DNA of 20,615 bases from Bacteroidales bacterium (GTDB lineage: Bacteria; Bacteroidota; Bacteroidia; Bacteroidales; UBA932): assembly GCA_017527625.1 (NCBI GenBank), contig JAFXPV010000003.1:1-20615 (forward strand), written 5' to 3'. Numbering within the stretch: the first letter of the stretch is position 1; each line of letters starts with the position of its first letter. This document shows positions 1 through 20,615 of this stretch, piece after piece. The position numbers and the translations under genes are program-made. A model generated the notes under the pieces. The model was not told where the DNA came from. It did not search any database and saw only the letters and a program-made list of their open reading frames with translations.

Positions 1-1091
1 AGAACTATTCCCGCTATTTCGACGGCCGCAAGCCAGGCCAGAGACCGTTCTGCCTGATAGATTACTTCCCCGATGATTTCGTGACATTCATCGACGAAAG
101 CCACGTGACGATACCGCAGGTGCGCGCAATGTACGGCGGAGACCGGGCGCGCAAGTCTACTCTGATAGAATACGGCTTCAGGCTTCCGGCTGCCGCCGAC
201 AACCGTCCCCTCAAATTCGACGAATTCGAGAACATACTCGGCCAGAAACTCTATGTCAGCGCAACTCCCGGTGACTATGAGCTTCAGAAGTGCGAGGGTC
301 TCGTGGTGGAACAGGTAGTCCGTCCCACCGGTCTGCTCGACCCTCCGATCGAGGTGCGCCCCACCAAGAACCAGATCGACGACCTGCTCGAAGAAATCGA
401 GATCCGCAGCGAGAACGACGAAAGGGTGCTGGTCACCACGCTTACCAAGCGTATGGCCGAAGAACTTGAGAAGTACCTCACCAAGATGGATGTGCGCAGC
501 CGCTATATCCACTCCGACGTGGATACGCTGGAGAGGGTGGAGATCATAGAAGATTTCAAGGCAGGCCGCTTCGACGTGCTGGTGGGTGTAAACCTGCTCC
601 GCGAAGGTCTTGACCTTCCTACCGTGTCGCTGGTGGCAATCCTGGATGCCGACAAGGAAGGCTTCCTGCGCAGCGAACGTTCGCTGACCCAGACTGCCGG
701 CCGCGCCGCAAGGAACATCAACGGCAAGGTGATAATGTATGCAGATACGGTCACCGAGTCGATGCAGCGCACCATCGACGAGACAAACCGCCGCCGTGCC
801 AAGCAGCAGCGCTACAATGAAGAGCACGGCATCACACCCCATCAGGTCGGCATCAAGGCCTATAACGCGCTTGTCCGCACGGATATTTACCAGAGGGAGG
901 ACGATCTGCACAAACAGGCAAGATATTTGGAGGAAGATCCCGTCATCGGCAAGATGGACGCCTCCCAGCTCAAAGAAGCTGTGGCAGCGGCCAAAAAGAG
1001 GATGGAAGATGCTGCGGCCCAGCTGGATTTCCTCGCTGCAGCCCAGGCCCGTGACGAGATGAACGCCCTTAAATTGTTGTTGGAAAAATGA
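1..1091 (+). CDS. uvrB: UvrABC excinuclease subunit B (3' part; 5' end outside window)
   Basis: UvrB is the DNA-opening, damage-verifying ATPase of nucleotide excision repair; UvrA loads it and it recruits UvrC. The reading frame is open from base 3 with no start codon in view. About 362 C-terminal residues are present of a usual ~670, so the gene begins upstream of the window. Visible family marks are the NYSRYFDGR stretch at the left edge, the helicase motif II variant DESH (bases 93-104) followed by VTIPQ, the helicase C-terminal lobe with [12 protein letters not shown], motif VI (QTAGRAARN, about bases 690-716), and a C-terminal UVR motif ending in KLLLEK that contacts UvrA/UvrC. The stop overlaps the next start as ATGA (1088-1091), implying translational coupling to the RelA/SpoT homologue. 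No damage or frameshift is seen in the visible part. Confidence 0.97.
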
Positions 1092-3211
1092 CGCAGGACG
1101 CCATAGACAGGATTTGCGCTTTCTACAGCGAAAGTGACGCAGCGATGATACGCCGGGCGTATGATCTCGCCTGCACTTGCCTTGAAGGCAAGGCGCGCAG
1201 CAACAACCATCCGTTCATAGAACATCCCCTGGCAGTGGCGGAAATAGTCGCCCGCGAGCTGGGGCTCGGTGCCGATGCGGCAGCGGCGGTGTTCCTGCAC
1301 GAGGCTACCCGTCAGGACAATGCAATTCTCGATACGGTGAAAGGCTCCTTCGACAAGGTCGTCATAGATATGGCGGTAAGCCTTAACAAGATATCCGAGA
1401 TAAAGCCCAAGGACACCCGCCTCGAAGCCGACCGCTACCGCAAGCTCATAGCCTCATATTCCAGCGATCCGAAGGTCTTTCTCATCAAGCTTGCCGACCG
1501 TCTGGAGATAATGCGCAACCTGGGCATCCTGCCCAAGTCCGACCAGGCCCGCAAGAACGCCGAGACAATCCTGCTGTATGTGCCACTGGCCCATCAGACA
1601 GGAGTCTACAACGTGAAGAGCGAGCTGGAGGACCTCTGGCTGAAATACGCCGACCCGGCGCAGTACCGCGCCATCTCCAACCAGCTCAAGGCGGGGGAGA
1701 AGGAGCGTGAGGCGCTGGTCAAGGAATTCGTCAGGCCCCTCGAAGACAAACTCCGTAGCAAAGGCATCAAATACACCCTGAAGGCCCGCACCAAGAGCGC
1801 CTACTCCATCTGGCGCAAGATGCAGGCCCAGGACATCCCTTTCAGCAAAGTCTATGATGTCTTTGCCATAAGGTTCATAATAGATGCTCCCCTCGAGAAA
1901 GAGAAAGATCTCTGCTGGGAGGTCTATTCCCTCGTGACTGAAGAGTACGAGCCGGACACCAGCCGCCTGCGCGACTGGATAACCGTGCCCAAGCCCAACG
2001 GCTACCAGTCCCTCCAGATCACAGTCAAGAATTCCCGCGGCCAGTTCCTCGAGGTTCAGATCCGCACCGAAAGGATGGACTACGAGGCCGAACTCGGCAG
2101 TGCAGCCCACTGGTCATACAAAGGCGTCAAGAAGGAGGAGAGCCTGCAGCACTGGCTGGATATGGTCCACGGCCTTATCAGCGGCAACTCGCAGGACAAC
2201 TACGAGCAGATAGACTCAGTCCTCAACCAGGACGTGTTCGTCTTCACGCCCAACGGCGAACTGCGCCAGCTCAGGGCCGGGGCGACCGTGCTTGACTTTG
2301 CCTTCGACATACATTCCAACATCGGATTGAAATGCTCCGGCGCCAAGATCGGCAGCAAGATGGTTTCCATCAAGGAGAAGCTAAAGACCGGCGACGTGGT
2401 GGAGATCCTGACCAACAAGAACCAGAAACCTAACGCCGGCTGGCTGGACTTCGTGGTCACCTCGAAGGCCAGGGCCAAAATCAAGCAGCGGCTCAAGGAA
2501 GAGGAGAACAAGATGGCCCGCGAGGGCAAGCAGCTGCTGGAGCGCAGGCTCAAGAACTGGAAGCTGGAACTGCCCGACGACGACCTGACATATCTGGTCA
2601 AGAAATACAAGTTCCGCACGGCGAACGAACTGTTCTCGGCCCTCGGCTCGGGCGACGTTGACGTGGCGGATATCAAGTCATATCTCCTCGACAAGGCTTC
2701 CCGAGTGCAGGAGACCGTCGAGAGCCACGTGATCCACACCCTGCGCAAGACGGACTCGTCCGACTACCTCGTCATCGGCGGCAACAAGTCGCTCAAGAAC
2801 GTGGACTACAAGATGGCCCGCTGCTGCAACCCTGTCTTCGGAGACGAAGTCTTCGGCTTCGTGACCGTCAATGACGGCATCAAGATCCACCGTATGTCGT
2901 GTCCAAACGCATCCAGGCTGCTGACCCTGTATCCTCACCGTGTGCAGAAGGTACGCTGGAAGGAAGATGCAAGCACAAACAGCTTCCAGACCACTGTCCG
3001 CGTGACAGTCGAGTCGGACTCGGCGGTGAACGAGGTGATATCGACCATCAGTATGTTCAAGGCTTCGATCCGCGCTTTCTATGTGAAGGACGCACGCAAC
3101 GGCGAGAAAGAGGTCACGGCGACCATCTTCGTGCCGGGCAACCTTGAACTCGACAAGATCATCGCTTCCCTGAAGAAGCTCAAGGACGTCAGACAAGTGA
3201 CAAGGATATAG
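1088..3211 (+). CDS. RelA/SpoT homologue, (p)ppGpp synthetase with degenerate hydrolase site
   Basis: This 707-residue long RSH protein has the usual order: HD-type domain (about 20-190), synthetase (about 230-340), TGS (about 382-445), zinc-finger region (C579, C580, H601, C605) and C-terminal ACT (about 630-707). The synthetase keeps the key acids D257 (VYDVFAIRF) and E322 (EVQIRT), plus PKPNGYQSL and an R-L-R-D element at 293-296 resembling the RxKD of bifunctional enzymes. The hydrolase half is eroded: HD is HE (71-72), the ED dyad is RQ (75-76), and the HN of KLADRLHN is EI (140-141); H46, H71 and D137 remain. By homology it makes (p)ppGpp from ATP and GTP/GDP, and I infer weak or no hydrolysis. 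The start is fixed by the ATGA overlap with uvrB; uvrA begins directly after its stop. Bacteroidota often carry a second, canonical RSH, which would supply hydrolysis. Confidence 0.95.
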
Positions 3212-5998
3212 ATGGAAGAGCAGGGAAACATATTCATCAAGGGCGCAAGGGCCAACAACCTCAAGAATTTCGATCTGTCGCTTCCGAGGGGCAAGTTCAT
3301 CGTCATTACAGGCATCTCCGGCTCCGGCAAGTCCTCGATAGCCTTCGACACCATCTATGCGGAAGGGCACAGGCGCTTCGCGGAGAGCCTTTCGTCATTC
3401 GCACGCCAGTTCCTGGGCAGGATGACCAAGCCTGCAGTCGACTATATCACCGGCATCCCGCCGGCAATAGCCGTGGAGCAGAAGGTGAATACCACCAATC
3501 CCCGTAGTACGATAGCCACGACCACCGAAGTCTATGATTACCTGAGGCTGCTGTTCGTCAATGCCGGCCGCACCTATTCCCCGGTAAGCGGAAGGGAAGT
3601 GGTCTGCGACACGGCCAAGAGCGTGCTGGACTATCTGCTGACGCTGGAAGAAGGCTCGGTGGCCCTGATTGCCGCGATGATAGACTGCGAGAGCGCAAAG
3701 ACCGTCGAATTCCTGCTTTCTCTCAAAGAAGAGGGCTTCTCGAGACTCGTCGATATGCGCAGCGGCGCTTTCTTCAAGATAGACGAGCTGCTCGCCGGCG
3801 GGCAGGTCACCGACCTTCGCGACAAGGCCCTGCTTATCGACAGGGTGACGGTGGCGGACGACGATGATTTCCGCTCCCGCGTGCTGGATTCCGCCCAGAC
3901 AGCCTTCGCCAAAGGCAAGGGCTACATCTACGCGGGGCCGGCAGGCAAGTTGCTCAGTTTCTCCAACATCTTCGAGGCCGACGGCATCATCTTCGAGGAG
4001 CCTACCGAGAATTTCTTCAGCTACAACAGCCCTTTGGGCGCCTGCCCTGTCTGCGGCGGTTACGGCAAGATCCTCGGCATAGACGAGTCCCTCGTCGTCC
4101 CCAATCCGACGCTCAGCGTCTATGAAGGCGCGATAGCCTGCTGGAGGGGCGAAGTGATGGGCTATTGCCAGGACCGGCTGGTGGAGAATGCATATCGTTT
4201 CGACTTCCCCATCCACAAGCCCTATAAAGACCTCACCCGCGAGCAGAAGGACCTGCTGTGGAACGGCAACGAATATTTCGACGGCATCAACACCTTCTTC
4301 GACTGGGTGCGCAAGAACCGCTACAAGATACAGTACAAATATATGCTGAGCCGCTACACCGGCAAGACGGTGTGCCGTGCCTGCGGAGGGTCCCGCCTGC
4401 GCAAGGAAGCCCTCTATGTCCGCGTCGGCGGCAAGAACATCGCAGAGGTGATGGATATGCAGATCAAGGATCTGCAGAAGTACCTCGACTCGCTCGACAG
4501 CCTGCTCACCGACTACGAAATGGCCAAGGTGGCAGTGCCGCTGAAGGAGCTGAAGATGAGGGTGGGCTATATGATGGATGTCGGGCTCGGCTATCTGACT
4601 ATGTCCCGGCCGTCCAATACCCTGAGCGGCGGCGAGAGCCAGCGCATCAACCTTGTCAGTTCCCTTGGCAACAACCTTGTCGGCTCGCTCTACATCCTCG
4701 ACGAGCCTTCCATCGGCCTGCATTCCCGCGATACCGAGAAACTCATCGGCGTGCTCAAGCGGCTCCGCGACCTGGGCAACACCGTGATCGTGGTGGAGCA
4801 CGACGAGCAGATAATAAAGGCTGCCGATATGCTGGTCGACGTAGGCCCTTATGCAGGAGTGTATGGAGGCCAGATAGTCTATCAGGGCCTGCCTGACGGC
4901 AGCGGGGTCTACAACGGGGATTCGATAACGATAGATTACCTCCAGGGACGCAGACAGAGATATCTGCCGGCTGCGAAAAGGCCGTGGAAGTATTCCATCG
5001 AAGTCTGCGGCGCGGCCGAGAACAACCTCAAGAACATATCCGTAAGGTTTCCGCTGGGCTGCCTGACCGTCGTCACAGGAGTCAGCGGCAGCGGCAAGTC
5101 TACGCTGGTGGGGGATATCCTCTATCCGGCCGTATACCGTCACATCAATCAGATAGGCGAGCGGCCCGGCGCGTACCGTGAACTGAAGGGCGACCTGAAC
5201 AAGATCACCTCGATAGAGTATGTCGACCAGAATCCCATAGGCAAGAGCACCCGGTCCAACCCTGTGACCTATCTCAAAGTGTACGACGACATCCGCAAGC
5301 TGTTCTCGGAGCAGCCTTATGCCAAGATGAACGGATTCGGCCATTCGCACTTCTCCTTCAACATCGACGGCGGCCGCTGTCCGGACTGCCAGGGTGAGGG
5401 TGTAATCCGCATCCAGATGCAGTTTATGGCCGATGTCACGATGGTGTGCGAGAGCTGCGGCGGACACCGCTTTATGCCCGAGATTCTCGAGGTGCGCTAT
5501 CAGGGCAGGAACATAGACGATGTGCTGAATATGAGCGTCAGCGAGGCCGTGGAGTTCTTCGCCTCCCAGGAGGACCCTTCTGCAAAGAGAATCGCCGAGA
5601 AACTCCAGCCGCTTGTGGACGTAGGCCTTGCATACCTGAAGCTCGGGCAGAGCAGCAGCACGCTGAGCGGCGGCGAGAGCCAGCGCATCAAGCTGGCATC
5701 CTTCCTCGCCAAGGACGCTTCTTCCAAGGAACGCATCCTCTTCATCTTCGACGAGCCTACGACAGGCCTCCACTTCTATGACATAGAGAAGCTGCTGAAG
5801 TCGTTCGACGCCCTCATTGCCCGAGGACACTCGATAATCGTAGTGGAGCACAATATGGATGTCATCAAGGCTGCAGACTGGATAATAGAGCTGGGTCCGG
5901 ATGCTGGAGACGAGGGTGGAGAACTGATTTTCGAAGGGACGCCCGAAGACCTTGCCGCACATCCTGAATTCCCCACCGGCAGGGCCCTGCAGGACTGA
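3212..5998 (+). CDS. uvrA: UvrABC excinuclease subunit A
   Basis: UvrA is the dimeric ABC-type ATPase that scans DNA for lesions and loads UvrB. The 928 residues are close to the usual ~940. Both ATPase halves are complete: Walker A GISGSGKSS (34-42) and GVSGSGKST (about 626-634); signatures LSGGESQ at 471 and about 818; Walker B LYILDEP (about 493-499) and LFIFDEP near the C-terminus. Zinc sites are CPVC (278-281) with CRAC (388-391), and C723/C726 with C746/C749. The ATG follows the preceding stop with no gap, so co-translation with the RSH gene and uvrB is likely. Many Bacteroidota carry two UvrA paralogues, and I cannot tell from this window whether a second exists; the location beside uvrB favours the repair enzyme. 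Its stop lies 2 bases from the end of the convergent gene, leaving no room for an intergenic terminator. Confidence 0.97.
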   Translation: MEEQGNIFIKGARANNLKNFDLSLPRGKFIVITGISGSGKSSIAFDTIYAEGHRRFAESLSSFARQFLGRMTKPAVDYITGIPPAIAVEQKVNTTNPRSTIATTTEVYDYLRLLFVNAGRTYSPVSGREVVCDTAKSVLDYLLTLEEGSVALIAAMIDCESAKTVEFLLSLKEEGFSRLVDMRSGAFFKIDELLAGGQVTDLRDKALLIDRVTVADDDDFRSRVLDSAQTAFAKGKGYIYAGPAGKLLSFSNIFEADGIIFEEPTENFFSYNSPLGACPVCGGYGKILGIDESLVVPNPTLSVYEGAIACWRGEVMGYCQDRLVENAYRFDFPIHKPYKDLTREQKDLLWNGNEYFDGINTFFDWVRKNRYKIQYKYMLSRYTGKTVCRACGGSRLRKEALYVRVGGKNIAEVMDMQIKDLQKYLDSLDSLLTDYEMAKVAVPLKELKMRVGYMMDVGLGYLTMSRPSNTLSGGESQRINLVSSLGNNLVGSLYILDEPSIGLHSRDTEKLIGVLKRLRDLGNTVIVVEHDEQIIKAADMLVDVGPYAGVYGGQIVYQGLPDGSGVYNGDSITIDYLQGRRQRYLPAAKRPWKYSIEVCGAAENNLKNISVRFPLGCLTVVTGVSGSGKSTLVGDILYPAVYRHINQIGERPGAYRELKGDLNKITSIEYVDQNPIGKSTRSNPVTYLKVYDDIRKLFSEQPYAKMNGFGHSHFSFNIDGGRCPDCQGEGVIRIQMQFMADVTMVCESCGGHRFMPEILEVRYQGRNIDDVLNMSVSEAVEFFASQEDPSAKRIAEKLQPLVDVGLAYLKLGQSSSTLSGGESQRIKLASFLAKDASSKERILFIFDEPTTGLHFYDIEKLLKSFDALIARGHSIIVVEHNMDVIKAADWIIELGPDAGDEGGELIFEGTPEDLAAHPEFPTGRALQD

Positions 5999-6000
5999 CG

Positions 6001-6882
6001 TCATTCGTCGTCTTCGTCGATGACCATATATCTCTGGTTGCCGAAATAGCCCATTGCTTTGGAGAGCAGCTCCACCATATCCTTGTTGCCTTTCTGGTCG
6101 AAATAGAAAGCGACAAGTTCCATATACATCGTGAGGATGGTGGCGTCCTTCTTTATCACCATCGAAGAGGGGTCGAGATTCAGGCCCTGAGAAGCCATCA
6201 TCGCTGAAAGATTTTCCTGAAGGAAGATTTCGCCTTTGTGGAATACGTTGAGGTAGAAAAGCACCTTGCCGTCTTCTACGTAGACCGGGACGAAGCCGCC
6301 CTTGAAGCAGAGCGGGTACACCGGCAGGCCGGCGGCGTGGGCTACCGCGAAGTAGAGGACGGATATCGCGACGGGGTTGCCGCGGCGCTTCTCGATGACA
6401 TTGATGAAAAGGGAATTGTCCTCGGAGAAAGAGAAGGGATCCGTCGTGGTGAAGTGGTATCTGTTGTAGAATATATGGTTCAGTATCCGGGCGTTCTCGA
6501 CGGCCGTCTTGTCTTCGGATGTCTCGCTCATTATCTCGCCGATCAGCGGTATGAGGTCGTCATAGAAGGCAGCCCTCTTGTAGCCGGGGGTAATCAGTGC
6601 GCTGATGAGGTAAGCGCCTTCCAGCAGGGTCGCCTCTTCCCGTTTGGCAAGGGCGGCATACTGCTCAAGCTGTTCCAGCACCGACGCTGCGCTGTAGTAT
6701 ATGAATTTGCGGTTGATGATGTCCCTGCGGACCTCGTCCTTGGTGTCGATGGCCATATTGCGCAGCGCGTCGAGCAGTTCAGGGCCACCCTGCCGGATTC
6801 TCTTGTCCAGCGCGGAGGCAACCTGGCTGTCGGGGTCGTCGAACAGGTCTACCAGGTATTCGAGGTCTTTGGTGTCTGTCAT
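6001..6882 (-). CDS. SirB1-like transglutaminase-fold protein
   Basis: A 293-residue cytosolic protein with no signal peptide. The segment around residues 130-190 (NSLFINVIEKRRGNPVAIS followed by a hydrophobic helix and AGLPVYPL) matches the Transglut_core2 / SirB1-like family, in which this RRG-P-ISVLY block is the most conserved part. The N-terminal ~100 residues are helical and charged, and the tail is very acidic (IDEDDE). These proteins usually lack an obvious catalytic Cys-His-Asp triad, and none is evident here, so an enzymatic role should not be assumed. Its ATG overlaps the upstream phosphorylase stop by one base (TAATG), so it is probably the last gene of a three-gene operon. The function is not known. 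Confidence 0.8.
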   Translation of the reverse strand: MTDTKDLEYLVDLFDDPDSQVASALDKRIRQGGPELLDALRNMAIDTKDEVRRDIINRKFIYYSAASVLEQLEQYAALAKREEATLLEGAYLISALITPGYKRAAFYDDLIPLIGEIMSETSEDKTAVENARILNHIFYNRYHFTTTDPFSFSEDNSLFINVIEKRRGNPVAISVLYFAVAHAAGLPVYPLCFKGGFVPVYVEDGKVLFYLNVFHKGEIFLQENLSAMMASQGLNLDPSSMVIKKDATILTMYMELVAFYFDQKGNKDMVELLSKAMGYFGNQRYMVIDEDDE

Positions 6883-8280: not shown

Positions 8281-10284
8281 CTATTGTTGCTGCTCCGTAC
8301 AGTATTTTTTGATGACGCTGTAGGCGTCGGCTATGCCCAGCTCTCCCGCCTTGCTCATATCGAGGCAGCCCTTTTCCTTGTCCTTGAGGAATATCAGCAC
8401 GAGGCCGCGGTTGTAATAGGCTTCGGGAATGTAAGGGTAGAGGTCGAGAGCCTTCGTGTACTGGCTTATGGCCGTCAGCATATCCTCGCTCAGGCAGAAC
8501 AGGTTGCCGAGGTTGTAGTATGTGTAGGGGAAGTCGGGGGCGACCTCCGCGGCTTTCATAAAGTCGCTTATCGCTGCTGAATAATCGTATGTCCGGGAGG
8601 CTGAGTTGTCCGAAACCGTCACCCTGGCTGTCGCTGAATTGTCGAGCGAGAGCACCCGGATGTTGTTGTCCATCGATGATATGAAGTCGGTCATATCGGC
8701 CTGAAGCACACCTCTGTTCAGATAGAGGAACTCGTTGTCGGGCTCCTTGGTCAGGGCTTCGTTGTAGCAGGCCATAGCAGTGTTGAACTGGCTCTGTCCC
8801 GTCTCGAGTACGGCCTTTGCGAGAAGGTTTCCGGCAGTCTTGCCGGTCAGCACTTCGTGGTTCACTGCAGCCAGTTTGGACGACAGGTCGTCTCCCGGGC
8901 TCTCCTTGTCGGTAGTCAGGGCCAGGTCGAGAGGCACCTCCTTGTAGAAGGCGTCCAGTTTTTCATACTGGAGTTTGTGAGAGAGGGTGTTCAGGTCGCT
9001 GATGACGGTCTTGCCGGCCAGCGCGAATCTGTAGAGGGGTTTGAGTCCTATGTCGACATCCCTGTACTGCAGCAGCTCGTTGTCGAAATTCTTCTTGGCG
9101 AAGTCGGCGTCGAAGTCGATGAGGTGGCTGTAGCTCTGAGTGGTGTCGGCGAAGGCTTCGTAGCCCTCCTTGGTGGACGTGCTCTGCTGGTATTCCCTGA
9201 TTTTCGCACGGGCAGTCTCGTAGTCTCTTTCGGATGCAGCCCACTGACCGAGCATATTGCGGGCGTAAGCCCTGTTCATATATGCCTTCGCGAAGTCGGG
9301 ATAGAGTTCGATGGCCTTGGTATAATCGGATATCGCGTTTTCATAGCGCCGCATCTCAAGGAATACCGAGGCTCTGTTGAAATATGCGAGCACGTTTTCG
9401 GAGTTGATGTTGATGACGCGGTCATAGTCGTCCAGCGCCTTCTCGAAGTCTCCTATCTGTGAATAGATTAGAGCTCTGTTGTAGAGCGTGAGGGCATTGC
9501 CGGGGTCGTCCCTCAGCACTTTGTCAAGATCTTCCAGCGCTCCGCGGATATCCTTGTTGTCATATTTCATAAGGCCGCGGTTGAAGTATGCCAGGGTGTT
9601 GGTGCTGTCGAGAGAGATGGCGGTGTCAAGGTCCTTTATAGCATCTTCGTACTGGTCGCGCAGTGCATATATGCGGGCGCGGCGGACGTATACCTCCGCG
9701 TCGTAGCGGTCAAGCCTGATGGCCTGGTTGTAATTGTCCAGGGCTTTTGTGGTATCGCCGAGGAAGAGGTAGCTTGCTCCCCGGTTGAGGTATGCGGCGC
9801 CGTCTTCCGGCTCGTTGCGGATGTAGCGGTCGAAGTCCTCCACCGCCTTTTCGAACTGCTGCGACATAAAGTATACTACGCCGCGGCTGAAATAAAGCCC
9901 CGTGTAGCCGGGCCGCAGGCCGACGGCGGTGGCAAGGTCTGCCAGCGCTTCGTCATATTTCCCGCTCTGGCTGCGGGCGATGGCGCGGTAGTGATAGCCG
10001 AGCGTGTATATCGGGTTTTTCTGAAGCGTCAGGTCGAAGTCCTTCTCGGCTCCGGTGTAGTCTCCGAGGTCGTACTTGGCCACTCCGCGGAAGAAGAAGG
10101 CCTCGTAATCGGCAGTGTCCAGCCTTGAAAGCACGTTGAAACTTGCTATGGCATCGGCATATTTGCCGTCAGCAAGCGCCCTGCGGCCACGCATATAGAA
10201 GTGGTCGGGGTTGTACTGTGCGGCCGCCTGGAAGCAAGCCGCAAGGCAGAGGACTGTCGTCAATATGTGCCTTTTCAAAGACAT
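8281..10284 (-). CDS. Exported tetratricopeptide-repeat protein
   Basis: A 667-residue protein with a cleavable signal peptide (basic MSLKRH, hydrophobic core, cleavage near QAAAQ about residue 22). Residues about 26-365 form roughly ten consecutive TPR units with the usual AYxNRG...A..D...A...P rhythm. A linker of about 100 residues with no clear repeat follows (about 366-470), then about three further TPR units to the end (for example NEFLYLNRG, PYTYYNLGN, PEAYYNRGL). It is expected in the periplasm as a protein-protein scaffold; no catalytic domain is visible. Its ATG overlaps the stop of the M28 peptidase gene by one base (TAATG), so the two are probably co-translated and may act together at the envelope. 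Partners are unknown. It could equally be a lipid- or outer-membrane-assembly scaffold. Confidence 0.92.
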   Translation of the reverse strand: MSLKRHILTTVLCLAACFQAAAQYNPDHFYMRGRRALADGKYADAIASFNVLSRLDTADYEAFFFRGVAKYDLGDYTGAEKDFDLTLQKNPIYTLGYHYRAIARSQSGKYDEALADLATAVGLRPGYTGLYFSRGVVYFMSQQFEKAVEDFDRYIRNEPEDGAAYLNRGASYLFLGDTTKALDNYNQAIRLDRYDAEVYVRRARIYALRDQYEDAIKDLDTAISLDSTNTLAYFNRGLMKYDNKDIRGALEDLDKVLRDDPGNALTLYNRALIYSQIGDFEKALDDYDRVININSENVLAYFNRASVFLEMRRYENAISDYTKAIELYPDFAKAYMNRAYARNMLGQWAASERDYETARAKIREYQQSTSTKEGYEAFADTTQSYSHLIDFDADFAKKNFDNELLQYRDVDIGLKPLYRFALAGKTVISDLNTLSHKLQYEKLDAFYKEVPLDLALTTDKESPGDDLSSKLAAVNHEVLTGKTAGNLLAKAVLETGQSQFNTAMACYNEALTKEPDNEFLYLNRGVLQADMTDFISSMDNNIRVLSLDNSATARVTVSDNSASRTYDYSAAISDFMKAAEVAPDFPYTYYNLGNLFCLSEDMLTAISQYTKALDLYPYIPEAYYNRGLVLIFLKDKEKGCLDMSKAGELGIADAYSVIKKYCTEQQQ

Positions 10285-11228
10285 TACAGGTTCGAATAAT
10301 TATAAATCACATCAAAGATCAGGGCGGTCCGCTTGCGAAGCATCCCGAAATCTATGATGTCAATCTTGTCGGTAGGTTTGTATGTGTGGTCGTGGAATGC
10401 GGAGGTGAAGAGCAGGGACGGAATCTTCTTTGACCTGAAAGAGTACTGGTCGCCCGTGCGGTATACCATTCCCGTGAAATTCTCACTGCCGTAGAACGAG
10501 TAGTCAATATCCATGCCGAAGCGGGCATTGGCGTTGCTGCGGCGGATTATTCCCTGCATTTCCTTTGGCAGGGTGTCTTCCCCGAGGACGATCAGGTAGT
10601 CCGGGCGGTTGCGGTGGACGGGTGCCAGTGTTGTGCCGAGCATATCAATATTGACTGCGCAAACAATCTTGTCGGCAGGGAAGGGCAGGTGCCTGACGAA
10701 ATACTCGCTTCCGGCCATATCGAGCTCCTTGCCGTCATACGCGATGAAGATCAGGTTCTTGCCCGGGCCAGCCCCGTCGGCCCTCATCTTGCCGAAAAGC
10801 TGCGCCAGGTTCAGCAGGGCCGTGACGCCTGAGGCGTTGTCGTCGGCGCCGCTGTAAATCTGGCCGCCAAGCCTGCCGAGATGGTCGTAGTGGGCTCCGA
10901 TGACTATGTATTCATCGCTCATCCGGTTGGCCGGGACGACACCGATGACATTCCGCACCATTATGGAATCGTCATAGGGGAACGACTGGGTGTAGTTCCA
11001 CTCAAAGGGCTTGAGTCCGTATTTGCGGAAGCGCTCCTTGATGAACTGCTCTGCGCTCAGTTTGCCGGGCGTGCCTGTGGCCCTGCCTTCTGCAAGCTCG
11101 CTGGCGAGGTAGTCCAGCGTCTGGTAGAGTTCTTCGGTCCCCACCATATTTTCATACGCCACGTGCGTCTGCCCCGACATTATAAATGCCTGGATGAAAA
11201 GCAACAGGGACAGGAAGACTTTGCGCAT
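10284..11228 (-). CDS. Exported M28 family zinc metallopeptidase
   Basis: A 314-residue protein with an N-terminal signal peptide (MRKVFLSLLLFIQAFIMSG). The M28 aminopeptidase layout is clear: first zinc His in GAHYDHLG (H113), bridging Asp in GADDNASG (D129/D130), the Glu pair region at 167-168, Asp in VNIDMLG (D195) and the last His in FHDHTYKPTDKIDIID (about H281). Such enzymes remove N-terminal residues from peptides outside the cytoplasm. The Glu-Glu pair reads Lys-Glu here (DGKELDMAGS), so the usual general-base Glu looks replaced while the zinc-ligand Glu remains; activity may be altered. It is the first gene of the leftward pair with the TPR gene and is divergent from the M23 gene 78 bases away. 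Confidence 0.92.
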   Translation of the reverse strand: MRKVFLSLLLFIQAFIMSGQTHVAYENMVGTEELYQTLDYLASELAEGRATGTPGKLSAEQFIKERFRKYGLKPFEWNYTQSFPYDDSIMVRNVIGVVPANRMSDEYIVIGAHYDHLGRLGGQIYSGADDNASGVTALLNLAQLFGKMRADGAGPGKNLIFIAYDGKELDMAGSEYFVRHLPFPADKIVCAVNIDMLGTTLAPVHRNRPDYLIVLGEDTLPKEMQGIIRRSNANARFGMDIDYSFYGSENFTGMVYRTGDQYSFRSKKIPSLLFTSAFHDHTYKPTDKIDIIDFGMLRKRTALIFDVIYNYSNL

Positions 11229-11306: not shown

Positions 11307-12242
11307 ATGAAAACAGCCTATATAGCGCTATTTGCCATCCTTTCATCCTTAGCTTGCCTGGCCCAAAGTCCCCAGGCCACTATCGACAGCCTGCCTGCCA
11401 CAAAAGCGGCTTTCGACACCCTGGACACCCGGGACAAATACACCAAGATCATCCTTTTCGACGACCAGACCTGGGCTTATTTCGACATAGGACATCCCAA
11501 GATCGATACGGCCAGCCTCTATGATGATTACTGGACCAACTCGGAGCTTCACGCCTACAATGATTATCCTGCGAGCTCGATTCCCGAGGAGATAGACCTG
11601 CTTCTGGCTGATTCTGTCTATAACTACCATTCACCCATCATAGGCTCGGTGTACAGCGGTTACAAAGTGCGTCGCGGCAGCCCCCACAAAGGGACCGACA
11701 TCCCGTTGTCCGTGGGAGATACCATTTTTGCCGCTTTTGACGGAGTTGTACGCTATGTGGGCACGACCAGGCAGACGGGCGGCTATGGCAACCTTGTGGT
11801 TATCAGGCATTCCAATGGTCTCGAAACCTATTACGGCCACCTGTCCAAGACTCTCTGCCAGCCCAATGAGACTGTCAAGGCCGGCGATGTGATCGGTCTC
11901 GGCGGCAGCACGGGCCGCAGCACCGGGCCCCACCTCCATTTCGAGGCCAGGTACAAAGGACAGGCCTTCGATCCCGAGCGTCTGATCGATTTCGAGACCG
12001 GTGCGCTGAGGGATTCGCTGTTCACTCTCAAGAAACATTATTTCAGCATATATTCCCACTATGGCCAGACCGAATCCGAGTCCAAGGCTGCTTCTGACCG
12101 TATCGTGCACACCATCCGTTCCGGCGATACGCTCAGTGCCCTGGCAAGGAGGTACGGCACTACCGTCTCAACAATCTGCAAGCTGAACAATATTTCGGCG
12201 AGCAAGACTCTGAGGGTGGGTGAGCGCATCATCGTCCGTTAG
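11307..12242 (+). CDS. Exported M23 peptidoglycan endopeptidase with C-terminal LysM
   Basis: A 311-residue protein with a signal peptide (MKTAYIALFAILSSLACLAQ). The M23 (LytM-type) domain spans about 115-230 and has the complete zinc/catalytic set: H127 and D131 in HKGTD, H178 in YGHLS, and H209/H211 in PHLHFE. A single LysM domain follows at 267-311 (HTIRSGDTLSALARRYGT...VGERIIV) and would bind glycan strands. The intact HxxxD and HxH motifs predict an active D,D-endopeptidase cutting peptide cross-links, rather than a degenerate EnvC/NlpD-type activator. It lies 6 bases upstream of the pnuC-like gene, so it probably heads an operon with it and the phosphoesterase. The C in LSSLACLAQ lies in a weak lipobox-like context, so a lipoprotein is a less likely alternative. 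Confidence 0.95.
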   Translation: MKTAYIALFAILSSLACLAQSPQATIDSLPATKAAFDTLDTRDKYTKIILFDDQTWAYFDIGHPKIDTASLYDDYWTNSELHAYNDYPASSIPEEIDLLLADSVYNYHSPIIGSVYSGYKVRRGSPHKGTDIPLSVGDTIFAAFDGVVRYVGTTRQTGGYGNLVVIRHSNGLETYYGHLSKTLCQPNETVKAGDVIGLGGSTGRSTGPHLHFEARYKGQAFDPERLIDFETGALRDSLFTLKKHYFSIYSHYGQTESESKAASDRIVHTIRSGDTLSALARRYGTTVSTICKLNNISASKTLRVGERIIVR

Positions 12243-12248: not shown

Positions 12249-12863
12249 ATGGAGTTCCTTGCCTTTTCCGATATCTGGGACTGGATTGAGTTCGCAGCGA
12301 TGGTCCTGGGCATACTGTATGTGGTCAAGGAAGTGCAGCAGAGGGTGTCGATGTGGTATTTCAACATCTTCTGTGCTTCTGCCTATGTGGCCATAGGCAT
12401 CCATCAGCATCTGTGGGGGTCGATGACTCTCAATATCTATTATGTACTCATTTCGTTCCTGGGCATATACCGTCTGACAAGGGACAAGGCGAAACTGTCC
12501 GAAGAGACGCCGGATGCAGCAAACCACGACATCGTGGTGCGCCGGATGCCTTCGCGCACCCTGCTGGTTTCCGCTCTAGTGTTCCTTGCCGGCGCTTCTG
12601 CGCTTTTCTTCGTGCTCAGGGCCCTGGACGATCCTCAGCCGAATCTGGATGCAGTGACAATGACGCTGAGTTTCATCGGCACATACTGGCTGACGAATTC
12701 CCATATCGAACAGTGGCTGCTGTGGATGGTTGCCGATGTGCTGCAGATAACGATGTTCGCCCTGCAGGGTATGTACGCGCCTGCCTTTATGTTCGCCGTA
12801 TACTTCTCAGCCAGCGTCTGGGGATACTTCCACTGGCGCAGGCATATGACAGTGATAGAATAA
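12249..12863 (+). CDS. PnuC-family vitamin transporter (nicotinamide riboside or thiamine)
   Basis: A 204-residue polytopic inner-membrane protein with about seven hydrophobic segments. It carries the PnuC/SWEET-like pattern: amphipathic start, VVKEVQQRVSMWYFNIFCASAY, the central WGSMTLNIYYVLISFLGIY segment, and a C-terminal NSHIEQWLLWMVADVLQ...YFSASVWGYFHW block. PnuC proteins move nicotinamide riboside by facilitated diffusion; Bacteroidota relatives (PnuT) can move thiamine. Substrate cannot be read from this sequence. There is no riboswitch-sized leader, only 6 bases after the M23 gene, and no adjacent nadR or thiamine kinase gene to decide the matter. Eight bases separate it from the phosphoesterase gene. 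Confidence 0.92.
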   Translation: MEFLAFSDIWDWIEFAAMVLGILYVVKEVQQRVSMWYFNIFCASAYVAIGIHQHLWGSMTLNIYYVLISFLGIYRLTRDKAKLSEETPDAANHDIVVRRMPSRTLLVSALVFLAGASALFFVLRALDDPQPNLDAVTMTLSFIGTYWLTNSHIEQWLLWMVADVLQITMFALQGMYAPAFMFAVYFSASVWGYFHWRRHMTVIE

Positions 12864-14479: not shown

Positions 14480-14522
14480 AAAAGAATAGGCCCGACTAAG
14501 GGCCTATTCTTTTGAGCGGAAA
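14471..14522 (-). terminator. Intrinsic terminator of tRNA-Gly within a perfect 23-bp inverted repeat
   Basis: The arms 14471-14493 and 14500-14522 are exact complements around a 6-base loop. The core, on the - strand, is AAAAGAATAGGCCC, loop, GGGCCTATTCTTTT (14513 down to 14480), a normal A-tract/stem/T-tract terminator for the tRNA. The outer 9 bp extend the stem into the tRNA: 14516-14522 is the 3' acceptor strand, so the mature tRNA end is part of the inverted repeat. Confidence 0.85.
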
Positions 14523-14587
14523 ACGGGTTTCGAACCCGCGACCTTCGGCTTGGGAAGCCGACGCTCTACCGACTGAGCTACTTCCGC
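14515..14587 (-). tRNA. tRNA-Gly (anticodon CCC)
   Basis: This 73-base cloverleaf folds completely on the - strand: acceptor GCGGAAG/TTTCCGC (last pair G-T), D stem GCTC/GAGC, anticodon stem TCGGC/GCCGA with loop TTCCCAA giving anticodon CCC, 5-base variable region AGGTC, T arm GCGGG/CCCGT with loop TTCGAAA, and discriminator T. CCA is not encoded (CAA follows). It reads GGG glycine codons. A full promoter lies just upstream and a terminator hairpin begins within its 3' end. Confidence 0.97.
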
Positions 14588-14597
14588 GGATTTGTTA

Positions 14598-14628
14598 TTG
14601 CAAATGTACTTGTTTTGATGTAATTTTA
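14598..14628 (+). promoter_or_regulatory. Candidate promoter of galKM (TTG-N20-TAATTTTA)
   Basis: TTG at 14598-14600, a 20-base spacer and TAATTTTA at 14621-14628, one base off TAnnTTTG. It occupies the same DNA as the tRNA promoter on the other strand, with each -7 box beside the other's -33. It implies a leader of about 40 bases before the galK ATG. Confidence 0.5.
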
Positions 14629-14631
14629 CAA
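14601..14631 (-). promoter_or_regulatory. Promoter of tRNA-Gly (TTG-N20-TACATTTG)
   Basis: On the - strand, TTG (14631-14629), a 20-base spacer, then TACATTTG (14608-14601), a full match to the Bacteroidota -33/-7 pattern. The -7 box ends 13 bases before the mature tRNA 5' end. It interlocks with the rightward galK promoter. Confidence 0.75.
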
Positions 14632-14674
14632 GATACGACTCGCAATAAACAAACCACTAAATAATCAAAAACAA

Positions 14675-15844: not shown

Positions 15845-15846
15845 CT

Positions 15847-16869
15847 ATGGCAGAAATCAAACATTTCACCCTCACCAACAGCAAAGGCGAGAGCGTCGTA
15901 CTGAGCAACTTCGGAGCCAGCATCCTGGCCATCAACGTTCCTGACCGCGGCGGCCGTATCGACAACGTCGTGCTGGCCTATGCCAAAGACGAGGACTACT
16001 ATGACGACGGTCCCTTTATGGGCAAGACTCCCGGAAGATATTCAAACCGTATCGCGAAGGGCCATTTCACCCTTGACGGCAAGCAATACACCCTCTCTAT
16101 CAACTGCGGCACCGAGCACCTGCACGGCGGCATCAAGGAAGAGAGCTACGCCAACCGCGTGTGGGACGCCGAGCAGAAAGGCAATTCAGTCGTGATGTCA
16201 CTTTTCAGCCCTGACGGCGACGCCGGCTATCCCGGCAACCTGAAAGTCCAGGCCACCTATACCTGGGATGACGACAGCTGCCTCACCCTCGACTTCGTCG
16301 CCACTACCGATGCCAAGACTGTCGTGAACCTTACCAACCACGTCTATTTCGACCTGCGCGGCGCCAGCAACAAGCAAGGAGGCATACTCAACCACGTGCT
16401 GAAGCTCAACTGCAGCAGGTATCTCCCCACCGACGACCAGCTGATTCCCACCGGAGAAATCGCTCCGGTTGCCGGGACTCCGATGGACTTCACCAAAGGC
16501 AGGATCGTAGGAAAGGATATCCACGATTACAGCTTCCCCGCACTCAAGTTCGGCAAGGGGTACGATGCCTGCTGGGCTATCGACGACTTCGACGGCAGCA
16601 TCAAGCCGATCGCCGAGCTGTGTGAGCCCTCTACCGGCAGGAAGATGGTCCTGAGCACCAACAAGCCCGGAGTCCAGCTCTACACCGGCAACTACCTCGA
16701 AGGCTGCCCCGACGGTCCTGGCGGATATGTCTACAAGGAGAATGACGGTCTGGCTCTCGAGTGCCAGGACTTCCCGGACGCTCCCAACCATCCCAACTTC
16801 GGCTACAAGCCGCTTGAGCCCGGAGAAACATACCACCACACTATGAAGTGGCAGTTCTCCGCTGAATAA
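15847..16869 (+). CDS. galM: Aldose 1-epimerase (galactose mutarotase)
   Basis: GalM interconverts beta- and alpha-galactose, supplying the alpha anomer to GalK. The protein has 340 residues. Motifs seen are GRYSNRIAKG with HLHGG about 20 residues later, the catalytic His in LTNHVYFDL (H165) and the catalytic Glu in LECQDFPDAPNHPNF (E305). The ATG at 15847, 2 bases after the galK stop, gives MAEIKHFTLTNSKG, a normal N-terminus; an in-frame upstream start inside galK would add nine residues without support. There is no signal peptide, so it acts in the cytosol, unlike some exported Bacteroidota mutarotases. A strong terminator follows 27 bases after the stop. Confidence 0.96.
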   Translation: MAEIKHFTLTNSKGESVVLSNFGASILAINVPDRGGRIDNVVLAYAKDEDYYDDGPFMGKTPGRYSNRIAKGHFTLDGKQYTLSINCGTEHLHGGIKEESYANRVWDAEQKGNSVVMSLFSPDGDAGYPGNLKVQATYTWDDDSCLTLDFVATTDAKTVVNLTNHVYFDLRGASNKQGGILNHVLKLNCSRYLPTDDQLIPTGEIAPVAGTPMDFTKGRIVGKDIHDYSFPALKFGKGYDACWAIDDFDGSIKPIAELCEPSTGRKMVLSTNKPGVQLYTGNYLEGCPDGPGGYVYKENDGLALECQDFPDAPNHPNFGYKPLEPGETYHHTMKWQFSAE

Positions 16870-16896
16870 AGCCCGAGGGCGACATATTGTTCGAAA

Positions 16897-16941
16897 AATT
16901 GAGGGTATCGTTGACATAAATGATACCCTCAATTGTTTTTT
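16897..16941 (+). terminator. Intrinsic terminator after galM
   Basis: AATTGAGGGTATC (16897-16909) and GATACCCTCAATT (16922-16934) form a perfect 13-bp stem with a 12-base loop, followed by G and six T (16936-16941). A run of A before the stem makes it possibly bidirectional. Its 3' edge overlaps the thrB promoter. Confidence 0.93.
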
Positions 16942-16963
16942 AATGCACGAGTTCCTATTTTTG
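16933..16963 (+). promoter_or_regulatory. Promoter of thrBC (TTG-N20-TATTTTTG)
   Basis: TTG at 16933-16935, exactly 20 bases of spacer and TATTTTTG at 16956-16963, a full match to the Bacteroidota consensus. Transcription would start about 17 bases before the thrB ATG. The -33 element shares bases with the right arm of the galM terminator. Confidence 0.78.
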
Positions 16964-16986
16964 CAGCTACATTGTTTCGCAGTGGT

Positions 16987-17919
16987 ATGAGAAAAGTTAG
17001 AGTTTTTGCACCGGCGTCCATTGCCAATATGGGCTGCGGTTTCGACATCATCGGTCTGGCCCTTGACGAAGTAGGGGACATCATTGAAATTGTTCAAAGC
17101 GAAGGAGACGGCCTGACCATCACCAACAAGACAGACGTTCCGCTTCCCGAAGACATCGAGAAGAACGTCATAACACCGGTGGTCCGCTCTTTTCTCAAGA
17201 GGATCGGCAAGAAAGCCCAGATAGACGTCACCATCTGCGAGAAGATTTATCCCGGCAGCGGCATAGGCTCCAGCGCGGCATCCAGTGCTGCGGCTGCCTA
17301 CGGTATGAACGAGCTTTACGGCTGCCCCCTGACAGAAGAGGAGGTAGTCGAGTGCGCGATGGAGGGTGAAAACCTCGCTTCCGGCGGCTACCACGCTGAC
17401 AATGCGGCTCCCGCAGTGATGGGCGGCATCATCCTCATCCGCGGCTATGAACCCCTTGACGTAGTGAAGATTTCCGTGCCCGGCAATTTCTACTGTGCCG
17501 TGATCCATCCCCGCATCGTCGTCTCAACCAGGGAGGCCCGCGAGATCCTGCCAAAGCAGGTGCCCCTGCACAGCGCCATCACCCAATGGGGCAATGTGGG
17601 CGGTCTGGTGGCCGGCCTTTTCACTTCAGATATCGAACTGGTCGGCCGCTCGATGAAGGATGTAATCGCAGAGCCGTACCGCAAGCAGTTCATCCCCGGT
17701 TTCGACGAGCTCCGCGAGAAAGTCCTCAAGGCCGGTGCGCTTGCAATGAACATCTCCGGTTCGGGTCCTTCAGTGTTTGCGCTTTGCAACCATAAGGACA
17801 AGGCAGATGCTGCCGGCAAGGTGATGGGTGAACATTTCAGCTCCCGCGGCATCGAGAATGAGGTTTATGTGGTGAAGGTTTCCAACAAGGGAGCCAAACT
17901 GACAAGAGTTTCCATCTGA
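16987..17919 (+). CDS. thrB: Homoserine kinase (GHMP family)
   Basis: ThrB phosphorylates homoserine with ATP to O-phosphohomoserine, the substrate of ThrC. The 310 residues fit the family (~300-310). Visible marks are the N-terminal VFAPASIANMGCGFDIIGLA, the GHMP ATP loop PGSGIGSSAASS (89-100), the homoserine-kinase block GYHADNAAPAVMGG (about 138-151) and a C-terminal GHMP motif NISGSGPSVFAL. The start at 16987 gives MRKVRVFAPA and lies just after a full promoter; an in-frame TTG further upstream (16933) is part of that promoter and is rejected. The stop overlaps the thrC ATG by one base (TGATG). No thrA is in the window. Confidence 0.96.
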   Translation: MRKVRVFAPASIANMGCGFDIIGLALDEVGDIIEIVQSEGDGLTITNKTDVPLPEDIEKNVITPVVRSFLKRIGKKAQIDVTICEKIYPGSGIGSSAASSAAAAYGMNELYGCPLTEEEVVECAMEGENLASGGYHADNAAPAVMGGIILIRGYEPLDVVKISVPGNFYCAVIHPRIVVSTREAREILPKQVPLHSAITQWGNVGGLVAGLFTSDIELVGRSMKDVIAEPYRKQFIPGFDELREKVLKAGALAMNISGSGPSVFALCNHKDKADAAGKVMGEHFSSRGIENEVYVVKVSNKGAKLTRVSI

Positions 17920-19220
17920 TGGTTTACTATAGCACAAGAGACAGAGAAAGGCTGCATCCCTACAGCCTTAAGGAAGCTGCGTTTATGGGTCTTGCACCCG
18001 ACGGCGGCCTGTTTGTGCCAGAGCGCATCCCCGCTGTCGATATGGCGGTGGTGGAGAGCAAGGCGGCTGAATCCTATGCAGAGATGGCCTGCTATCTGGC
18101 CGGCCTGTTCTTCGGCGACGACGTGCCGCAGGCAGACCTGCGCAGGATGGTCTTCAATGCCTACAACTTCGACTGCCCGCTGGTGAAGGTGGGGGAGGGT
18201 AAGTACACCCTCGAACTGTTCCACGGTCCGACCTTTGCCTTCAAGGACTTCGGCGCCCGCTTTATGGGCGGAATGCTCGGCCTGCTGAATCAGTCGGCCG
18301 AAGACCTGGTGGTGCTCACGGCAACATCGGGTGACACAGGAAGTGCAGTTGCCGCCGGTTTCTACAACGTGCCGGGCATCAAGGTGGTTGTGCTCTACCC
18401 GAACGGCAAGGTTTCCGACCTGCAGGAGAGCCAGATGACCACTCTGGGCGGCAATATCCGTCCCGTGCGTGTCAACGGCAATTTCGACGACTGCCAGGCC
18501 CTCGTAAAGCAGGTTTTCAATGATTCTGCGTTCCGTTCTCACGTCAACGTGACTTCGGCCAATTCCATAAACATCCTTCGCTGGATTCCCCAGTCATTCT
18601 ATTATTTCTACGGCTGGTGCCAGTGGAAGAAGGCGACGGGGGAGCAGCTGCCCACCATCGTCGTGCCCAGCGGCAACTACGGCAACATCACTGCCGGTAT
18701 GCTGGCTCAAGCTATGGGACTGCCGGTGAAGGGCTTCGTGGCCGGCTCGAACGCCAACGACGTGGTGCCGGAGTACCTGCGCAGCGGCATCTACAGCCCG
18801 AGAGAGAGCGTGCGCACCATCGCCAACGCTATGGATGTCGGAGCGCCGAGCAACTTCGAGCGGATGATGTATCTCTACGGAGAGGATTTCGACCGTCTCA
18901 CCGGCTCTCTGGCCGGCTTCAGCAATACCGACGCCGAGATACGTGACGGCATCCGCGATATGTACGAGAAGTTCGGCTATGTTTCCGACCCCCACAGTGC
19001 TGTGGGCTACAACGCCTCGAAGTTCTATGGCATCGAGGGCTTCTGGCTCTCCACAGCCCATCACGCCAAGTTCCGCGAGGTCATTGCCGACACCCTCGGC
19101 CGCGAATTTCCAATCCCCGAAGGCCTGCAGGTCGCAATGCACAAACAGAAGCACTTCCACCCGATGGATGTGTCAGTCGCAGCGCTGGAGGACTATATCG
19201 TGGAGTGCGTGAGAGAGTAG
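17919..19220 (+). CDS. thrC: Threonine synthase
   Basis: ThrC converts O-phosphohomoserine to threonine using PLP. The 433 residues match the usual bacterial length. The N-terminal threonine-synthase domain (YYSTRDRE, then LAPDGGLFVPE) is followed by the PLP lysine K109 in HGPTFAFKDFGARF, the ATSGDTGSAVAAG phosphate loop at about 139-151 and the PSGNYGNITAG segment at about 250-260. The one-base overlap with thrB points to translational coupling. No terminator follows; the lipoprotein gene starts 11 bases after the stop. Bases 19115-19141, encoding PEGLQVAM, are repeated almost exactly at 20363-20389. Confidence 0.97.
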   Translation: MVYYSTRDRERLHPYSLKEAAFMGLAPDGGLFVPERIPAVDMAVVESKAAESYAEMACYLAGLFFGDDVPQADLRRMVFNAYNFDCPLVKVGEGKYTLELFHGPTFAFKDFGARFMGGMLGLLNQSAEDLVVLTATSGDTGSAVAAGFYNVPGIKVVVLYPNGKVSDLQESQMTTLGGNIRPVRVNGNFDDCQALVKQVFNDSAFRSHVNVTSANSINILRWIPQSFYYFYGWCQWKKATGEQLPTIVVPSGNYGNITAGMLAQAMGLPVKGFVAGSNANDVVPEYLRSGIYSPRESVRTIANAMDVGAPSNFERMMYLYGEDFDRLTGSLAGFSNTDAEIRDGIRDMYEKFGYVSDPHSAVGYNASKFYGIEGFWLSTAHHAKFREVIADTLGREFPIPEGLQVAMHKQKHFHPMDVSVAALEDYIVECVRE

Positions 19221-19231
19221 TATAGTACTGT

Positions 19232-20362
19232 ATGATTATGAAAATATCAAGATTGGCTATTATTTGTCTGTTTGCTGTAACCGCGCTGAGCGCTTGCCGC
19301 GAGACAGAAATTCCGTCCGCGGCAGTCAATGCTGATTCCATCGCCGGCTTCTACCTGCTCAATGAAGGTAACAAGGGGAGCAACAGATGCACACTTGACT
19401 ACTATGACTACCAAAGCGAAGTATACATCAAAAACGTATTTGCTGAACGCAATCCGGGAATGGTCGAGTCACTTGGAGACCTCGGCAATGACCTGCAGCG
19501 CTACGGGTCCAAGCTATATGCCGTGGTAAACTGCTCAAACCTGGTTGAGGTCATTGATGTCGCGACGGCAAAGCATATAGGGCAGGTATCTGTCCCTAAC
19601 TGCCGCTACATAGTCTTTCAGGACGGCTACGCATACGTAAGCTCATACGCAGGGCCAGTGGATTCTGAACGGGACTCTGTCGGTTATGTCGCAAAAATCG
19701 ACACGACTTCCCTTCAGGTAGTGGCGACCTGCAAGGTGGGATATCAGCCGGAAGAGATGGTCATCACGAATGGCAAACTATATGTGGCCAATTCGGGATG
19801 CTGCCGTGAGCCCGATTACGAGCATACAATCTCGGTTGTCGATCTGGATTCGTTTCAGGAACTCGGCAAAATAGACGTGGCTCCAAACCTGCACCGGATG
19901 GAGCTTGACCCCTACGGCAAACTCTGGGTGTCCAGCAGGGGCGATTATTACGATATACAATCGATGTTATTTGTCATCGATACGGATGGCGACTGTGTCA
20001 TCGATCAGTTAGACTTGTTGCCCTGCAGCGATATGACCATCTGCGGTGATTCGCTCTACGTGTTGGCCAATGTCTGGAGTAACTTCACACAGGCCAGCGA
20101 GGTCAGCTATGGCATCGTGGATTTGACCACCCGCCAGATTGTCTCCCGCAGTTTTATCAGCGACGGCACTGACGACCAGTTCCAAAACCCCTACGGCATA
20201 GCTGTCAACCCCCAGACGCGCGAAATCTTCATAACCGAAGCCCGCGACTATGTCACCCCGGGAAGAATCTATTGCTACTCGCCCGAAGGCCGGCTAAAAT
20301 GGCGAGCCGACACAGGCGATGTCCCTTCCCGCATCGTATTCACCAACACGCCCCTCCTCTGA
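19232..20362 (+). CDS. YncE/DUF5074-type beta-propeller surface lipoprotein (BtuG-like fold)
   Basis: A 376-residue predicted lipoprotein: short basic N-terminus, hydrophobic core, then lipobox LSAC with the lipidated Cys at 22 (20 if translation starts at the second ATG, 19238). Acidic residues directly after the Cys (CRETE) resemble the export signal that sends Bacteroidota lipoproteins to the cell surface. The mature part opens with FYLLNEGNKGSNRCTLDYYD and repeats short beta-strand units such as GSKLYAVVNCSNLVEVIDVAT, GYAYVSS, GKLYVANSG and SLYVLANV, the blade pattern of seven-bladed YncE-like propellers. That family includes BtuG, the surface cobalamin-binding protein, but ligand and partner transporter cannot be read here. 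It looks more AT-rich than its neighbours. It follows thrC by 11 bases with no evident promoter, and is immediately followed by a 27-bp copy of thrC sequence. Confidence 0.86.
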   Translation: MIMKISRLAIICLFAVTALSACRETEIPSAAVNADSIAGFYLLNEGNKGSNRCTLDYYDYQSEVYIKNVFAERNPGMVESLGDLGNDLQRYGSKLYAVVNCSNLVEVIDVATAKHIGQVSVPNCRYIVFQDGYAYVSSYAGPVDSERDSVGYVAKIDTTSLQVVATCKVGYQPEEMVITNGKLYVANSGCCREPDYEHTISVVDLDSFQELGKIDVAPNLHRMELDPYGKLWVSSRGDYYDIQSMLFVIDTDGDCVIDQLDLLPCSDMTICGDSLYVLANVWSNFTQASEVSYGIVDLTTRQIVSRSFISDGTDDQFQNPYGIAVNPQTREIFITEARDYVTPGRIYCYSPEGRLKWRADTGDVPSRIVFTNTPLL

Positions 20363-20389
20363 CCCCGAAGGCCTCCAGGTCGCAATGCA
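20363..20389 (+). repeat. 27-bp near-exact copy of the thrC 3' coding region
   Basis: This segment begins at the first base after the lipoprotein stop codon. It matches 19115-19141 inside thrC at 26 of 27 bases (G at 19127 is C at 20375). The offset is 1248 bases. The match stops abruptly on both sides. Part of it (CCCGAAGGCCT, 20364-20374) is also repeated in inverted form at 20476-20486. Confidence 0.9.
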
Positions 20390-20399
20390 TATCCTATAC

Positions 20400-20436
20400 C
20401 GGGCAAGGCGTGCCGTATTTTTACCCACCTTGCCCG
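20400..20436. repeat. Hairpin CGGGCAAGG/CCTTGCCCG
   Basis: A perfect 9-bp stem (20400-20408 with 20428-20436) around a 19-base loop. It sits inside the wider inverted repeat 20364-20374 / 20476-20486. It could end transcription from the lipoprotein gene, but no T-run follows the stem. Confidence 0.65.
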
Positions 20437-20492
20437 CCAAGATGGTTTAATGGCGGCAGCCTCAGATGGAAAGTAAGGCCTTCGGGAAGCTC

Positions 20493-20572
20493 GTTCGCTG
20501 CGCTCTCTCGTACCCTCCCATTGCCTGCTTCGTCATGCTTCGCATAACTCGCATTCAACGGGCACCCTCCCC
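20493..20572. repeat. Dispersed intergenic repeat, copy B
   Basis: The second copy of the ~80-base repeat, in the same orientation as copy A. Its internal hairpin is ATGC-TTC-GCAT (20535-20545), and a hairpin TGGCC-GGGT-GGCCA (20578-20591) follows after 6 bases. The window ends 43 bases later, so the full right boundary is not seen. Two of the only three CATG sites found in the window lie here or just beyond (20534, 20590). Confidence 0.88.
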
Positions 20573-20615
20573 TTCCCTGGCCGGGTGGCCATGTTCCCTC
20601 AGACCTTCTTTCCAT

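Follow-up and report, generated by a model that had tools for sequence, protein, structure and literature searches.

How can a stretch of ordinary bacterial core genes come to be nearly empty of a single tetranucleotide? The stretch of Bacteroidales DNA analysed here (the window, 20,615 bp, 55.8% GC) carries a partial uvrB, a relA/spoT family gene, uvrA, pnuC, galactokinase, galM, threonine synthase and others, together with a tRNA-Gly. An exact count finds CATG in it at only three positions (Table 1), against an expectation from base composition of 78.4 and from a maximal-order Markov model, built on its tri- and dinucleotides, of 83.2. The resulting observed-to-expected ratio (o/e) is 0.036, and the Poisson probability of three or fewer sites is about 7e-32. 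CATG is the most depleted of all 4-mers in the window, with CTAG second (3/32); GATC is halved (53/102), and nine of the eleven 2-kb bins hold no CATG at all. This is a short palindrome lying below its Markov expectation, the pattern by which restriction-site avoidance is recognised. A sequence-only reading of this DNA had listed the same three positions, which the count bears out; its figure of about 58% GC was too high, while the near-absence that it described against about 75 predicted sites stands.

Beyond the last gene, within 20363-20615, two of the residual sites are separated by 56 bases; an Rfam comparison of this segment yields nothing above threshold, its one RsmZ-like match scoring 16.6 bits vs 44. 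That end had been called repeat-rich, a description that Tandem Repeats Finder does not confirm, returning a single weak array in the window, at 11901-11929. The third site falls in a gene with similarity to aminopeptidases, under curated cut-offs. An 869-codon open frame runs antisense to uvrA (3395-6004, minus strand) and is probably a shadow of codon usage.

Table 1. CATG and the codon detours around it in the window (a hyphen within a motif marks the codon boundary).
Feature	Position	Strand	Remark
Whole window nearly CATG-free, both strands	1..20615	.	3 vs 83.2 expected
TTT-ATG, uvrA	5423..5428	+	Phe detour avoiding CATG
TTT-ATG, uvrA	5471..5476	+	
TTT-ATG, pnuC	12786..12791	+	
TTT-ATG, galM	16015..16020	+	
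TTT-ATG, thrC	17982..17987	+	
TTT-ATG, thrC	18261..18266	+	
TTT-ATG beyond the earlier list	7266, 8557, 9865		
Residual CATG, GGC-ATG	10512..10515	.	sole in-gene C-ATG; M28-peptidase-like gene 10284-11228 (minus)
Residual CATG, right end	20534..20537	.	outside listed genes
Residual CATG, right end	20590..20593	.	outside listed genes

Within genes, the word is avoided through the choice of codon. No TTC-ATG occurs in the window and TTT-ATG occurs at nine places, six of them already named in the sequence-only reading (uvrA twice, pnuC, galM and thrC twice, all present, the largest shift in position being 7 bases) and three more. The same reading had Asp, Asn and Tyr behave likewise, and they do so throughout, with 17 GAT, 6 AAT and 6 TAT before Met and not one codon ending in C. 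Taken together, two-fold codons before ATG end in T 40 times and in C never; before other codons that start with A, the counts are 328 C and 66 T. Four-fold codons before ATG (G29 T11 A8 C1) stay close to their usual non-C proportions (G180 A83 T44). The codon detours around CATG are therefore real.

To see how far this property extends among relatives, we compared the window with its best 80 UvrA-matching contigs, a set of 81 in which the closest matches are rumen Bacteroidales at 68-70% UvrA identity. CATG o/e falls below 0.1 in six of the 81 (window 3/83, L051 0/83, L014 1/48, L037 2/71, L016 3/79, L026 4/60), lies at 0.20-0.36 in four and at 0.55-1.26 in the other 71; among these best 80, the nearest relatives of the window are normal (L001 0.93, L002 0.85, L007 0.71). 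On the UvrA tree of the 81, the CATG-less label of the six requires five changes, at least four of them forced by well-supported branches, and its clustering is not significant (60 of 500 shuffles score as low). We conclude that the depletion is patchy and not common to close relatives. Across 393 Bacteroidales genomes, the density of CATGNRRRR has a median of 424 per Mb and drops below half of this in 25 genomes and below a tenth in two; the CATG-poorest is G330, followed by G360 (22 contigs).

Within a genome, the purge can also vary. Further stretches were taken from among G001-G005, the source genomes of the five CATG-less contigs besides the window: two more contigs of G001 are empty (0/50 and 0/54), three stretches of G002 hold 11/73, 6/73 and 19/76, and six arbitrarily picked stretches of G004 range from 0/63 to 34/82, with up to 18/63 and 24/40 in stretches picked for methyltransferase genes. 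Genome-wide, G004 stands 8th of 393, with 297 matches vs 1043 for the control pattern. In G002 and G004 these values differ from those of the original contigs; the purge is thus strong in the uvrA region and, in some of these genomes, uneven outside it. The 16S rRNA gene could be located in 2 of 18 genomes, and Rfam gave no match on seven stretches of purged genomes. The 16S fragment of G002 retains four CATG, with none in 1.4 kb of flank where 4.5 are expected, which suggests, for one fragment in one genome, that sites are tolerated where RNA function demands them and so argues against a CATG nuclease acting without any methylation.

What is being selected, the codon or the DNA word? Given their proteins and codon usage, the six CATG-less contigs contain 8 of 300 expected sites in the frame C-ATG, 0 of 39 in CA-TG and 1 of 72 in CAT-G, vs 261/272, 43/31 and 115/134 in six normal contigs; their intergenic DNA holds none where 10 are expected, too small a number to carry weight. 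G360 gives larger numbers, with 280 CATG vs 7470 expected across 1,958,474 bases and 872 of 969 2-kb bins empty, 207 of 278 sites being concentrated in just 43 bins. When these clusters are masked (137 genes excluded), genes keep 28/6364 sites, intergenic DNA 3/315 and divergent promoter stretches 1/66, although masking by site count pushes these figures down by construction. In the pieces that we read closely, the clusters lie partly within low-GC genes of foreign look.

Sister pairs allow the loss to be followed site by site. Of the 41 aligned CATG of L010, a single one persists in L014, whose UvrA is 90% identical, and at conserved C-ATG the C survives in 0 of 17 cases vs 124 of 170 at control sites; from L028 to L058, the values are 1 of 22, and 1 of 14 vs 79 of 100. 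A rough estimate from these counts puts CATG loss at about 9-11 times the control rate in both pairs. The four-fold codons are replaced by T2 A1 G2 in one pair and T3 A5 G2 in the other, and on these small counts neither T excess is significant (P 0.28 and 1.0). L058 is itself a mosaic that retains most of its CATG in the first 6.7 kb. With all three frames, the intergenic DNA of G360 and both sister pairs in agreement, the depletion is selection on the DNA word and not a codon or mutation bias.

The kind of word involved is informative as well. In a survey of 4-mers across the 81 contigs, 10,929 combinations of contig and word have an expectation of 15 or more (1235 of them palindromic). Of these, 38 have o/e below 0.12, and every one is a palindrome (CTAG 22, CATG 6, GATC 5, GGCC 3, GCGC 1, AGCT 1), an indication of Type II restriction. 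CTAG is widely scarce among the compared contigs, the window included. Some contigs are purged of other palindromes just as strongly: GGCC 0/34 in L054, GATC 0/50 in L070, AGCT 0/23 in L076 and GCGC 2/53 in L051.

We therefore think it likely that the window was purged by a past or present orthodox Type II restriction-modification (R-M) system cutting CATG, with NlaIII-like specificity. The host lineage would carry, or have recently carried, such an endonuclease; a CATG left momentarily unmethylated would risk self-cleavage, so that each site would bear a small fitness cost, and since a CATG within a gene can always be removed synonymously, nearly all would be replaced over time by whichever codon is at hand. 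The action of a system of this kind in the window's lineage, and self-cleavage as the cost, are both what we infer.

CATG is cut by known enzymes such as NlaIII, FatI and CviAII, and the sequence-only reading had suggested a search for genes of this type. In other Bacteroidales the search is productive. G330 carries, between host genes, a low-GC cassette, itself without CATG, in which the gene for an ICEA (NlaIII/IceA family) endonuclease sits between two methyltransferase genes, one of the HPPY family and one of the D12 family, the latter presumably resembling M.NlaIII. HPPY methyltransferases (E 1e-20 or better) are present in seven of the 393 genomes, full length in G330, G293 and G077, as truncated copies in G086, broken in G389, and cut or partial in G091 and G081; in this order, their ranks are 1, 16, 4, 7, 24, 39 and 32 of 393 by CATG density and 1, 22, 3, 13, 120, 92 and 31 by the GTAC-control ratio. 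All seven thus lie within the lowest tenth by density (Mann-Whitney P 1.2e-5) and two of the seven are not low by the ratio (P 1.2e-4), for genomes that are phylogenetically non-independent. The gene adjoining the methyltransferase is ICEA in G330 and a weak-EVE protein (below cut-off) in G293; in G077 and G389 it matches nothing in Pfam. One of the 269 genomes in the family of the window's nearest relative (G011, source of contig L002) has the HPPY methyltransferase, namely G590; its neighbours there are an ICEA endonuclease (398 bits) and a second weak-EVE protein, and the locus is only mildly depleted (CATG 6/12.7). In G006, an ICEA-like gene adjoins this methyltransferase, and contig L041 of that genome has CATG 10/49. 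These results support an association of CATG-type R-M genes with CATG scarcity in other Bacteroidales, and to that extent the NlaIII-like cause first proposed.

Several observations surround these genes. Contigs L335, L234, L235 and L161 combine one methyltransferase family with varied neighbours that are candidate endonucleases (ICEA, weak-EVE proteins and two genes of ~290 aa); the latter two, with no Pfam match, look alike by eye. Viral contigs have relatives of the methyltransferase at eight loci and of the endonuclease at one, with CATG 1/36 in L332, 5/24 in L328, 9/29 in L334 and 14/23 in L326, and 50/45, 51/57, 55/71, 68/86 and 91/93 in the other five; L332, an IMG/VR contig with a weak methyltransferase match, is possibly a phage of a CATG-restricting host. 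Plasmids gave one distant match to the endonuclease. A profile (A1) built from the G006 ICEA-like gene and its relatives (34 of 120 listed matches) was rejected as a detector of NlaIII-type genes, as it matched only G152 among the 393, ranked just 29th in CATG, and missed the G330 gene found by PF05315.

In several other purged genomes, the same search comes up empty. No ICEA (PF05315) endonuclease was named among 19 open reading frames of the window (10 compared with NCBIfam, 10 with Pfam, one with both) or found in the draft genomes G001-G005 and G008 (the unpurged sister of G008 being the genome of L028), nor did these six drafts yield a close HPPY relative by single-sequence search (profile A2 covered the sets of 393 and 269 genomes, and the single-sequence search stood in for it on G001-G003, G005 and G008). 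Neither gene was found in the G360 draft, where PF01555 was looked for by a motif scan of part of the genome. In G001, G005 and G008 neither D12 nor N6_N4 was matched, and Eco57I was matched only weakly and below cut-off; across the D12, N6_N4 and Eco57I searches, no family was confined to CATG-poor genomes, whose D12 genes are of several kinds. As all of these are drafts, absence is weak evidence, and the best reading is that the enzyme of the window's lineage was lost, was missed in the drafts or belongs to another family. It is possible, if rather doubtful, that several uncultured Bacteroidales lineages, that of the window among them, are purged by a restriction or defence system from a family whose CATG specificity has yet to be recognised; this rests on G360 without ICEA or an NlaIII-associated methyltransferase and on G001, G005 and G008 without D12 or N6_N4, in drafts that may lack genes.

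Could CATG disappear without selection against its cleavage? Mutation targeted to CATG, whether a methylated base is deaminated or breaks are repaired with errors, would erase sites unselected and could produce the loss rate of the sister pairs, and pooled four-fold codons before ATG do show a mild T excess (G157 T169 A88 C4 vs G1015 T836 A681 C1817 elsewhere). The changed base nevertheless varies by frame (C in C-ATG, A in CA-TG, T in CAT-G), the four-fold codons of the window keep nearly their usual non-C proportions, and a tenfold rate, we argue, should still spare roughly one site in ten, whereas the genes of G360 outside the masked clusters keep 0.4%. We reject m5C deamination as the main cause on the frame pattern and the lack of a significant T bias in the sister pairs, and consider targeted mutation in general very improbable; the selection proposed in the sequence-only reading is upheld, and its mutational alternative is disfavoured by the three frames, the intergenic DNA, the four-fold replacements and the palindromes. 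Codon bias as the main cause is likewise rejected, with all frames and intergenic DNA purged. That dinucleotide or codon bias might explain the ratio had been raised from the outset and is not what we see: about 83 sites are expected from the tri- and dinucleotides themselves, which tells equally against a codon-pair or mRNA-level effect, and close relatives of similar composition have normal CATG.

An RNA endonuclease cutting CAUG deserves separate mention, since CATG is its own reverse complement and selection on mRNA alone would lower it in genes too, and since the G002 16S fragment retains its sites. The equal purging of intergenic DNA in G360, divergent promoter stretches included, already contradicts it, and we regard codon-pair, dinucleotide and mRNA-level bias as extremely improbable. 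The cost might instead be paid in DNA exchange rather than self-cleavage, with restriction by neighbours destroying incoming CATG-bearing DNA and CATG-free alleles spreading by recombination. Such a sieve would, by inference, let genomes without a CATG enzyme of their own be purged, and quickly; but clusters of CATG, partly in low-GC, foreign-looking genes, persist in purged genomes, so CATG-bearing DNA does enter, and we judge this account improbable.

If a Type II system cutting CATG is responsible, restriction-site avoidance can near completion over most of a chromosome, genic and intergenic alike, and sister species can come to differ in it. With pairs such as L010/L014 and L028/L058, one could measure what a restriction system costs per site and how long it takes to act. 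CATG clusters within purged genomes mark probable foreign DNA, and unknown restriction systems might be sought in those purged genomes that have no known CATG enzyme.

Among the top matches in the open-licence PMC literature, none dealt with depletion of CATG in Bacteroidales. Rusinov et al. 2015 (PMC4687349) tie avoidance of short palindromes to orthodox Type II R-M systems and read avoidance without an encoded system as the trace of a lost one. As in those cases, a short palindrome is under-represented here; its depletion is near-total, which may set the window apart, and the cognate system of the lineage is putative. In H. pylori (PMC10423294), the methyltransferase for CATG occurs universally, yet of the motifs counted CATG is the densest, so that having a system of this type does not by itself entail a purge. 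NlaIII and HpyI (IceA1) share the recognition word, and their ICEA endonuclease family is found in G330 and G590 (compare PMC10423294), whereas searches of G001-G005 found no such gene. UpaP162 of Ureaplasma parvum (PMC6191088) is another Type II system specific for CATG, in which a blunt-cutting endonuclease is paired with an m6A-type methyltransferase; its authors report that it is not homologous to known enzymes, which shows that CATG is also cut by enzymes of other families. Restriction-site avoidance is an established phenomenon, and the window is an unusually extreme instance of it.
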